This document shows, piece after piece, positions 598 through 3,816 of a DNA stretch of 64,000 nucleotides. Made by a program: the position numbers and the translations under genes. Positions within the stretch are counted from its first letter, which is position 1; every line of letters begins with the position of its first letter. The DNA is from Blastococcus sp. Marseille-P5729 (GTDB lineage: Bacteria > Actinomycetota > Actinomycetes > Mycobacteriales > Antricoccaceae). Below the pieces are notes generated by a model. The model saw nothing but the letters and a program-made list of their open reading frames with translations, searched no databases and had not been told where the DNA came from. The stretch is taken from assembly GCF_900292035.1 (NCBI RefSeq), contig NZ_OMPO01000001.1:1495192-1559191 (forward strand), in the 5' to 3' direction.

Positions 598-1440
598 ATG
601 GGCGCCCTCAAGAGCTACCTCGCCGAGTTCATCGGCACCATGGTCCTGGTGATCGGCGGCGTGGGAACCGCGGTGATCGCAGGCGACCAGGTCGGTTACC
701 TCGGCATCGCCCTGGCCTTCGGCCTGACGCTGGTCTTCCTGGTCTACGCGATCGGACCGATCTCCGGCTGCCACGTCAACCCGGCAGTCACCCTGGGCCT
801 GCTGGCCACGGGCAAGATCGCACTGAAGGACGCCATCGCGTACGTCGTCGCGCAGTTCCTGGGCGGCATCGCGGGCGCGGCGATCGTGTTCGGCATCGCG
901 CACGGCAACCCGACGTACACCCGCTCCATCGACGGCCTCGGCGCGAACGGCTACGGCACCGGCAGCCCCGACGGGTACAGCCTCGCGTCGTCCTTCGGCG
1001 CCGAGATCGTGCTGACCTTCCTGCTGGTGTTCGTCGTCCTCGCCGCGACCGACCGGATCGGCACCGCGGCGCTCGCCGGCCTGGCGATCGGTACCACGCT
1101 GATCATCTGCCACCTCGTGGGCATCCCGATCACCGGCACCTCGGTGAACCCGGCCCGCTCGCTCGGCCCGGCGTTGTTCGCCGGCGGAGACGCGCTGAGC
1201 CAGTTGTGGCTGTTCCTGGTCGCCCCCGCCATCGGCGGAGTGATCGGCGCACTCGTCTACAACATCCTCTTCGGTCAGGACAAGGTCGGCTACGAGGGCG
1301 AGCTGAACGTCGACGGTCGAGAGGACGGCGATCCGCTCGACCGCACACCCGGCACTCGGGACGCCCGGCACGACGCGCTTTCGACGGCCGGCCGGGATGG
1401 CGCGGTCGATCCGTCGGCGCGCACCGACGACGCGCGGTAG
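598..1440 (+). CDS. aqpZ: Aquaporin, MIP family (AqpZ-like water channel)
   Basis: 280-residue six-helix channel with both half-helix boxes intact: HVNPAV (N61-P62-A63) and SVNPAR (N184-P185-A186). The residue after the second box is Arg, as in water-selective aquaporins. The ATG at 598 follows GAAAGGAG at 585-592; longer upstream frames overlap the preceding gene and are not needed. About 50 polar, charged residues follow the last helix, longer than in E. coli AqpZ (231 aa), and probably form a cytoplasmic tail. Expected role is passive water flux in osmotic adaptation. A glycerol-facilitator role is less likely from the length and box context. Confidence 0.9.
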   Translation: MGALKSYLAEFIGTMVLVIGGVGTAVIAGDQVGYLGIALAFGLTLVFLVYAIGPISGCHVNPAVTLGLLATGKIALKDAIAYVVAQFLGGIAGAAIVFGIAHGNPTYTRSIDGLGANGYGTGSPDGYSLASSFGAEIVLTFLLVFVVLAATDRIGTAALAGLAIGTTLIICHLVGIPITGTSVNPARSLGPALFAGGDALSQLWLFLVAPAIGGVIGALVYNILFGQDKVGYEGELNVDGREDGDPLDRTPGTRDARHDALSTAGRDGAVDPSARTDDAR

Positions 1441-1458
1441 CCGGGCCACGGTCTCCGC

Positions 1459-1492
1459 GGAGGGCGCGGCCTCCTGCGAGGGCGCGCCCTCC
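1459..1492. terminator. Hairpin between convergent genes
   Basis: A perfect 10-bp stem (1459-1468 with 1483-1492, GGAGGGCGCG) sits between the convergent aquaporin and nucleoside hydrolase genes. There is no clear U-tract, so it may act as a bidirectional GC-rich terminator typical of actinomycetes. Its left arm begins just after the aquaporin stop and its right arm ends just before the hydrolase stop. Confidence 0.45.
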
Positions 1493-1494
1493 CG

Positions 1495-2487
1495 TCATGT
1501 CTGCGTAGCGTCCCGCCGACGAGTCAACCGTTCTACGAGCCGGTCGGGGAAGGTTCCGGCGGTCTCGAGCACAACGCGGCAGCGTGCATCGTCCTGGCGC
1601 GGAAACCCGCGGTAGCGGCCTCGGGTGTCGCAGATCGTTGCTCCCCTGCTGGGCCCGTCGGTGCAGTCGATCTCGACCCTGATGACGGGTGCGAGCATCG
1701 GCAGGACGTCGCCGACGGCGATCGCCGCAGCCAACGCGTCATGGCACGGGGAGCTGCGCTCGGTGTACGAGTCGGCGTGGAAGAACTCGAAGTAGAAGTC
1801 GGTGATCGCCGCGACGAAGCGGGCTGCCGGTTGGTCGCTGGCGGCTAGCGCAGCGCGGTGTCGCTCCGTGACCACCTCGCGCATCGTCACATCGAGCGGC
1901 ACGAGCGTGATCGGCCAGTCGGCGCTCAGCACCGCGTGGGCTGCCTCTGGGTCGTGCAGGATGTTGGCCTCGGCTGCTGCTGTCTGGTTGCCTGGCGCGT
2001 CGGCCGCGCCGCCCATCACGGTCACCCCGGCGACGAGGGCTGGCAGGTCTGGTTCGATGCCGAGGGCGAGCGCCAGATTCGTCAACGGCCCGGTAGCGAG
2101 GATGTGCAGCTCGCCGGGCCTTGCGCGAGCGGCGTGCACGATCAGCTCGGCCGCACTGCGCGAATCCAGCGGTCGCTCGGAGGCAGGAAGCCCGACGCCG
2201 CCTAGACCATCCTCACCGTGCACGTGTGGCGCAAGCTCGGGGATGTCTCCGCGCAGACTCCGCGAGGCCCCAACGGCGACCGGTATCGCGTCTGCATCCA
2301 CAAGGTCGAGAACTCGTAGGCAGTTGGCCGCAGCAGCCGGCGCCGTCGTATTACCGAAAACTGTCGATATAGACGCAATCTCGGCACGCTCGTCGAGCAG
2401 CAGGTACAGGAGGGCCATCGCGTCGTCCACTCCGGTATCGCAGTCGACGTGTAGCACCCGGGCATCAGCAATCCTCACGGCAGCCAT
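1495..2487 (-). CDS. Inosine-uridine preferring nucleoside hydrolase
   Basis: 330 residues, the usual length for this family. The calcium-binding signature DxDxxxDD is at D15, D17, D21 and D22, and a later conserved aspartate sits in CHDALA. The enzyme cleaves the N-glycosidic bond of purine or pyrimidine ribonucleosides for salvage; base preference cannot be read from the sequence. The ATG at 2487 is chosen because CCTGAAAGG lies just upstream; the longer frame to 2562 adds 25 arginine-rich residues unlike the family. It is transcribed divergently from the SDR gene at 2682. Confidence 0.9.
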   Translation of the reverse strand: MAAVRIADARVLHVDCDTGVDDAMALLYLLLDERAEIASISTVFGNTTAPAAAANCLRVLDLVDADAIPVAVGASRSLRGDIPELAPHVHGEDGLGGVGLPASERPLDSRSAAELIVHAARARPGELHILATGPLTNLALALGIEPDLPALVAGVTVMGGAADAPGNQTAAAEANILHDPEAAHAVLSADWPITLVPLDVTMREVVTERHRAALAASDQPAARFVAAITDFYFEFFHADSYTERSSPCHDALAAAIAVGDVLPMLAPVIRVEIDCTDGPSRGATICDTRGRYRGFPRQDDARCRVVLETAGTFPDRLVERLTRRRDATQT

Positions 2488-2681
2488 CCTTTCAGGCGCC
2501 CGGCTCAGCACGAGCGACCGGAGCGGGAGCTCCCGACGAGCGCGGAGTGAAGACCTCGGCACCTTCTCACGCGGTCACCGAGGTGCCCGGTTGCCGATCG
2601 GTAGTCTGGCGCATGATCCCTCCGCCGTTCCCTCCTTTCGCAGGGCAGGGTGGAGCCCCCACGAGTGGAAGGAGCAGCGGC

Positions 2682-3368
2682 ATGCGGCACATCGGTGAGA
2701 GCCTCGGCGGCAAGCGGGTCTTGATCACCCAAGCCAGCGAGTTCATGGGCCCCGTTCTGGTCGAGGCGTTCAAGTCGTACGGCGCCGACGTCGTCGTCGA
2801 CGAGCGCGTGCTCGACAGCGGCCTCGCCGGCGAGGAGGTCGCCACCGCCGCAGGTGAGGTCGACGTCCTGATCGCCAACCTCGGCGTCCCGGCGCCCAGC
2901 ACCAAGGCACACGAGATCGGCGACGACGAGTTCCGGTACGCCTTCGCGCACATCGTCGATCCGCTGCCCGGCCTGTTCCGCGGCGTGCTGCCAGGGATGC
3001 TCGAGCGCCGCCGCGGCAAGATCGTCGTGATGGGCAGCGCGCAGGCGCTACGGAGCCAGAAGCGGGTCGCCACCTACGCCGCGGCGCGCAGCGCGCAAGC
3101 CGGGTTTGTCCGCGCCGCCGGGATCGAGGCTGCGCCGTCCAACGTGCAGATCAACATGATCGCGCAGAACTTCATCGAGAACCCGATGTACTACGGACCT
3201 GAGGTCCAGGCGAACCCAGCCTTCCAAGAGCGGCTGCGGCGCGAGGTTCCCGCGGGGCGTCTCGGCACTCCCGAGGAGGACGCGCAGTTCGCCGTGTTCC
3301 TCGCCTCCGACGAGGTGGGCTTCTTCGCCGGGCAGTCCATCTCTTTCTCCGGCGGCTGGGCAACCTGA
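2682..3368 (+). CDS. SDR-family enzyme with halohydrin dehalogenase signatures
   Basis: 228 residues with a short-chain dehydrogenase fold. Two features separate it from oxidoreductases. The catalytic triad reads S119, Y132, R136 (S-x12-Y-x3-R), with Arg in place of the usual Lys, the spacing known for HheC. The N-terminal region, where SDRs bind NAD(P) with TGxxxGxG, reads T16-QASE-F21-M-G23, fitting the T-x4-(F/Y)-x-G halide-pocket motif described for halohydrin dehalogenases. The C-terminal part (RLGT, then FLAS, then a GQ-x5-GG segment) also resembles HheC. Predicted activity is reversible epoxide/haloalcohol conversion without a nicotinamide cofactor. The start at 2682 follows GGAAGGAG. 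Family assignment as SDR is near certain; the dehalogenase call is motif-based. Confidence 0.8.
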   Translation: MRHIGESLGGKRVLITQASEFMGPVLVEAFKSYGADVVVDERVLDSGLAGEEVATAAGEVDVLIANLGVPAPSTKAHEIGDDEFRYAFAHIVDPLPGLFRGVLPGMLERRRGKIVVMGSAQALRSQKRVATYAAARSAQAGFVRAAGIEAAPSNVQINMIAQNFIENPMYYGPEVQANPAFQERLRREVPAGRLGTPEEDAQFAVFLASDEVGFFAGQSISFSGGWAT

Positions 3369-3522
3369 CGAACGACGTCCCCACCGCCGTCCTGCTCGGC
3401 TTCCAGGTTCTCGCGAGCTTCATGGGAGTTTTCGGGTTCGCGGTGGTCTTCAACTGACCGGCGCTGGTCGCCTTGGCCGCCCCCGGCGAATGAGGTGGCC
3501 GTTCGCGAGGCCAGCAGGAACG

Positions 3523-3556
3523 AGAACGGGCGAGCCCTCGCGGACTCGCCCGTTCT
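3523..3556. terminator. 12-bp stem-loop downstream of tRNA-Arg and the SDR gene
   Basis: Perfect inverted repeat AGAACGGGCGAG (3523-3534) with its complement at 3545-3556 and a 10-base loop. It lies about 25 bases past the 3' end of the minus-strand tRNA-Arg gene and 155 bases past the SDR stop, so it can serve both strands. Confidence 0.6.
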
Positions 3557-3581
3557 TCACATGATGCGCGGCTACAAAGTG

Positions 3582-3655
<74 letters not shown>

Positions 3656-3816
3656 TCGTGCGGCTTCCCGCGAAGTGCGTTGTCCAGTATGGCATATCGC
3701 GCGAGGCCGCGGCGATGTGTTTTGGCACACCGCCCCCGCGGAGGATGCGGGACCCCGTCCGTTCGTCGCTCCTACGTCGCGTCGAACGTCCTCCTCAAAT
3801 CCCGGACTCCGCTTCG

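Follow-up and report, generated by a model that had tools for sequence, protein, structure and literature searches.

A probable halohydrin dehalogenase related to the D and B types in a strain-specific segment of an actinobacterial genome

Introduction

Halohydrin dehalogenases (HHDHs) interconvert halohydrins and epoxides; the family is known and is used in industry. These enzymes are valued as biocatalysts and are difficult to tell apart from the numerous SDRs. A 228-residue reading frame in the genome of Blastococcus sp. Marseille-P5729 raises just this question: does it encode an HHDH or an ordinary SDR, how did it reach this genome and what does it do there? An initial annotation had proposed an HHDH that lies hidden among SDR genes and follows HheC in its C-terminal half.

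Here, we examine the gene within a window of 64,000 nucleotides, the whole stretch of DNA that was analysed, and compare the encoded protein (the window protein) with its homologues, with solved structures and with the SDR-type paralogues of the same genome. As judged from its sequence, the window protein is very probably a cofactor-free HHDH of the SDR superfamily, belonging to a clade that is sister to the D type.

Results

The reading frame and its surroundings

The features of the locus are listed below in window coordinates.

1367..3579, no strand: strain-specific segment of about 2.2 kb, boundaries approximate (flanks align to congener G002)
1495..2562, - strand: inosine-uridine type nucleoside hydrolase, divergent neighbour (Pfam PF01156, 278.7 bits)
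2669..2674, + strand: AAGGAG, ribosome-binding site, 7 nt 5' of the ATG (read from the sequence)
2682..3368, + strand: predicted halohydrin dehalogenase (HHDH) gene, 228 aa, related to types D and B (motifs, best PDB matches and tree)
2727..2750, + strand: motif 1, T-x4-F-x-G (TQASEFMG), predicted nucleophile pocket replacing the NAD(P)-binding glycine motif (definition of PMC11976700)
3036..3089, + strand: motif 2, S-x12-Y-x3-R, predicted catalytic Ser119-Tyr132-Arg136 (invariant in the aligned homologues)
3581..3655, - strand: tRNA-Arg(ACG), at the segment edge (ARAGORN and Rfam)

The HHDH reading frame is real and intact. It runs from an ATG at 2682 to a stop codon at 3366-3368, its start matches the N-termini of the homologues in the alignment, and its GC content at the three codon positions (0.70/0.46/0.90) is similar to that of the neighbouring genes. 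Around it lie the nucleoside hydrolase, tRNA genes, a CAAX-type protease and an acyl-CoA synthetase; the gene itself stands alone, is transcribed away from the nucleoside hydrolase and has no catabolic gene linked to it. None of the other SDR matches of the genome falls within the window, so the gene is not hidden among SDR genes as first described.

Two smaller elements follow the gene. A possible 30-residue hydrophobic reading frame directly 3' of it was dropped, having no match in 60 relatives. Between the HHDH stop codon and tRNA-Arg there is a perfect 11-bp inverted repeat, GAACGGGCGAG...CTCGCCCGTTC (3524-3555), which may act as terminator for that tRNA.

Both HHDH motifs are present and the SDR motifs are absent

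The fingerprints of HHDHs are T-x4-F/Y-x-G and S-x12-Y-x3-R, and those of SDRs are T-G/A-x3-G/A-x-G and S-x10-14-Y-x3-K (PMC11976700; PMC4989007). The initial annotation had read both HHDH motifs in the protein and had called them published hallmarks of the family, in agreement with the same two papers. Both readings are exact: TQASEFMG begins at residue 16 (T16-x4-F21-x-G23) and SAQALRSQKRVATYAAAR begins at residue 119 (S119-x12-Y132-x3-R136, with Y132-AAA-R136). The SDR cofactor motif, which requires Gly or Ala at places 2 and 6, is missing from TQASEFMG, where these places are taken by Gln and Phe, and Arg136 replaces the Lys of the classical catalytic motif S-x(10-14)-Y-x3-K.

All 13 full-length homologues with 50-75% identity keep both motifs, as does one homologue that ends at a contig edge. 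Residues T16, G23, S119, Y132 and R136 show no variation in the homologue alignment, and the predicted catalytic and pocket residues as a whole vary little or not at all. Retention across the 13 full-length proteins argues that the motifs are not a product of chance. Scoring was possible for 13 SDR-type paralogues encoded in this genome: 12 of them carry the SDR motif S-x(10-14)-Y-x3-K, and none carries the pair of HHDH motifs.

Matches to solved structures and protein families

The top sequence matches in the PDB are 7b73 (245.7 bits), 8xxb (236.4), 4zd6 (189.6) and 5b12 (183.4). The first of these is HheD2, a halohydrin dehalogenase (PMC5892878; PMC9629495); 8xxb is an HheD8 triple mutant with bound chloride according to the fold library, 4zd6 is HheB and 5b12 is an HheB mutant. 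Identity to HheD2, HheD8 and HheB is 47-51%. The next chain after the HHDHs, 6a41, scores 89.6 bits and is itself named a dehalogenase, and the best ordinary SDR reaches 84.1 bits. Fold comparison used an AlphaFold model of the monomer (mean pLDDT 80.4), which served for fold ranking alone because its pLDDT drops below 50 near the active site (residues 120-127 and 165-172), too low for the halide pocket to be seen. The Z scores were 26.5 for HheD2, 26.4 for HheD8 and 25.0-25.4 for HheB, and 23.3 or less for SDRs. Best matches among cofactor-binding SDRs had been named as the outcome that would overturn the HHDH proposal; the best matches are HHDHs instead, and the proposal stands.

The family libraries give a different label. 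Pfam SDR models match from residue 51 onward only, leaving out the cofactor-loop part, and the best NCBIfam match, an SDR model, scores 98.6 bits against a cut-off of 306, with all the matches listed far below their cut-offs. No HHDH-named family is among the best NCBIfam matches; such genes are therefore likely to be annotated as SDRs.

Position in the HHDH tree

In a maximum-likelihood tree with HHDH references of the B, C and D types, in which HheC was represented by a sequence identical to PDB 1pwx, the window protein lies within the HHDH clade (support 100/99) and groups with the D-type enzymes (98/99). Its nearest neighbour is L009, with 75% identity (100/98), followed by L010, L012 and L011. 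With these references, the clade composed of the window protein and L009-L012 comes out as sister to the HheD2/HheD8 clade, beside the D-type branch. Farther out come HheB and the remoter homologues from actinobacteria, the SDR paralogues of the same genome form a separate group outside the HHDH clade, and HheC sits on a long branch, its exact placement being unsure. Nesting within the HHDH clade, together with the best sequence and fold matches to HheD2, HheD8 and HheB, supports the HHDH identity first proposed.

Distribution and origin

A scan of species genomes returned 14 loci with 50-76% identity, all labelled Pseudomonadota and several of them MAGs. No clear homologue (E up to 1e-30) was found in 60 relatives, including two congeners. 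When the best seven candidates per genome were scored, clear homologues were present in 2 of 399 genomes of the order, counting this genome, and in 4 of 396 genomes of the phylum. Viral contigs yielded no relatives. That the host is an actinobacterium is borne out by its seryl-tRNA synthetase, which is closest, in the records searched, to those of Nocardia, Rhodococcus and Tsukamurella (65-67%).

The gene order conserved in the family at this locus runs from a protease through aquaporin, tRNA-Arg, tRNA-Ser and a CAAX protease on to serS. The aquaporin and tRNA-Arg flanks are 122 bp apart in congener G002 and 2.2 kb apart in this genome, where positions 1301-1366 and 3580-3694 align to G002. 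Between the flanks lie the nucleoside hydrolase and HHDH genes, and at this position the congener lacks the former too. In other relatives the position is occupied by unrelated genes, such as phosphate permease-like and pantothenate synthetase-like genes (named from sequence only), which marks the gap between aquaporin and tRNA-Arg as a variable spot. Across five related genomes that were compared, the content between aquaporin and tRNA-Arg(ACG) differs, the bare 122 bp occurring in G002 only.

Horizontal acquisition of the HHDH gene is likely, since its closest relatives are proteobacterial; insertion is preferred to loss because, in addition, the gene is absent in nearly all relatives. A search of the opposite segment edge for an att-like copy of the 3' end of tRNA-Arg found no shared word of at least 10 bases; nothing therefore points to an integrase having targeted the tRNA gene, and the 2.2-kb segment carries no integrase gene. 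Third-position GC is host-like in the HHDH gene (0.90) and not in the nucleoside hydrolase gene (0.77); the two genes may therefore have been acquired in separate events.

Gene neighbourhoods of the homologues

No gene neighbourhood is common to the 14 close homologues beyond closely related lineages. The neighbourhood is thus not conserved even in close homologues, and clues to a role come from more distant ones. The Novosphingobium plasmid pSA2 (L060:6805-8678) carries a 45% homologue directly after an epoxide hydrolase gene, within a run of genes for catabolic dehydrogenases. At L066:3417-5183 (actinobacterial genome G549), a 45% homologue is divergent from a haloalkane dehalogenase (374.9 bits versus an NCBIfam cut-off of 265), with a cytochrome P450 nearby. 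In G274, an unassigned alpha/beta hydrolase gene follows the HHDH homologue.

Some of these homologues depart from the fingerprints. Motif 1 of the pSA2 protein reads SMAELYMG, with Ser for Thr, and a strict motif search would therefore miss it; a 41% homologue at L068:8753-9427 apparently has one residue extra between Ser and Tyr relative to motif 2. Strict motif filters may undercount the HHDH family. One further homologue, L063 (G650:C174:1970-2653), contains an in-frame TAG and is either a decayed copy or the result of a sequencing error.

Elsewhere in the host genome there is an intact-looking epoxide hydrolase gene (PF06441, 125.1 bits; G000:C1:918921), which makes a route from haloalcohol through epoxide to diol possible. 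A gene of the PF06441 type is also present in congener G001, which has no HHDH, so the epoxide hydrolase is not tied to the HHDH. The host genome holds no haloalkane dehalogenase above the cut-off, only sub-threshold alpha/beta hydrolases; a search for a limonene-type epoxide hydrolase found none.

Discussion

The reaction mechanism of HHDHs has been established for HheC (PMC4989007). By analogy, Ser119 of the window protein would hold the substrate hydroxyl, and Tyr132, its pKa lowered by Arg136, would accept the hydroxyl proton; the resulting alkoxide would then displace the vicinal halide to form the epoxide. The leaving halide would exit into a pocket made partly by the motif-1 loop (T16...F21-x-G23), at the site where SDRs hold the nicotinamide cofactor. 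As for HheC, halide, azide, cyanide and comparable anions should be able to drive the reaction in reverse. From the sequence we infer both the enzymatic activity and the halide pocket.

The natural function of HHDHs is presumed to be the detoxification and degradation of haloalcohols (PMC11536340). For the window protein, the most likely role, to which we give about even chances, is turnover of vicinal haloalcohols, whether natural or man-made, in which case the epoxide product would be passed to the host epoxide hydrolase. We consider it unlikely that the protein is an HHDH with a different physiological reaction, for example the opening of an epoxide metabolite by some other anion, or a reaction within a biosynthetic or nucleoside pathway. 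In favour of this reading, the natural substrates of most HHDHs are not known, and the gene has a nucleoside hydrolase, not a haloalkane pathway, next to it; however, this hydrolase is divergently transcribed, was seen beside none of the homologues and differs in third-position GC (0.77 versus 0.90), and two deeper homologues adjoin haloalkane dehalogenase or epoxide hydrolase genes. It is very improbable that the window protein and L009-L012 constitute an uncharacterised HHDH subtype that naturally acts on a specific metabolite and not on xenobiotic haloalcohols; in that case the co-located nucleoside hydrolase would hint at nucleosides or sugars in halogenated or epoxidised form.

We give slightly less credence still to a decayed or non-functional acquisition: this reading is invited by the orphan state of the gene and by the patchy, strain-specific nature of its segment, but the frame is intact and is preceded by a ribosome-binding site, its codon-position composition is host-like and the conserved residues are all kept. 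Least credible of all is an ordinary NAD(P)-dependent SDR with Arg for Lys by chance, which would fit the database names and the restriction of NCBIfam and Pfam matches to SDR models, but those NCBIfam matches listed are far under their cut-offs (98.6 versus 306 bits at best), the closest homologues are known HHDHs, an HHDH motif stands in place of the missing cofactor glycine motif and the tree excludes the SDR paralogues.

As a very probable HHDH, the window protein adds an actinobacterial member to the clade sister to the D type and is not a novel type of enzyme; biocatalysis specialists would wish to include it in a panel but would find nothing surprising in it. The locus provides a clean case of probable strain-specific acquisition. 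For the question of the natural role, the epoxide hydrolase and haloalkane dehalogenase neighbours of the two deeper homologues supply concrete loci, and L066 is a better one than the window.

Among the named enzymes, HheC (Agrobacterium radiobacter AD1, PDB 1pwx) shares both motifs with the window protein and presumably the same chemistry. Nevertheless, the likeness to HheC that the initial annotation had stressed did not survive comparison: identity is just 24%, no higher than to ordinary SDRs, features such as FLAS and G(Q)..GG occur in SDRs of the same genome too, and HheC has a C-terminal extension (PMC4989007) that the window protein lacks. The real kin are the B and D types. HheB (Corynebacterium sp. 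N-1074, PDB 4zd6), with 47% identity, has both motifs and the same C-terminal GGWAT, but it carries Tyr for Phe in motif 1 and lies farther away on the tree. HheD8 (PDB 8xxb; fold Z 26.4) is 51% identical, and so, over the full length, is HheD2 (PDB 7b73), a D-type enzyme from a gammaproteobacterium. HheD2 and HheD8 lie in the D-type branch, whereas the window protein lies with L009-L012 in the sister clade; HheD2 resembles it in both motifs, in length and in the absence of the cofactor motif.
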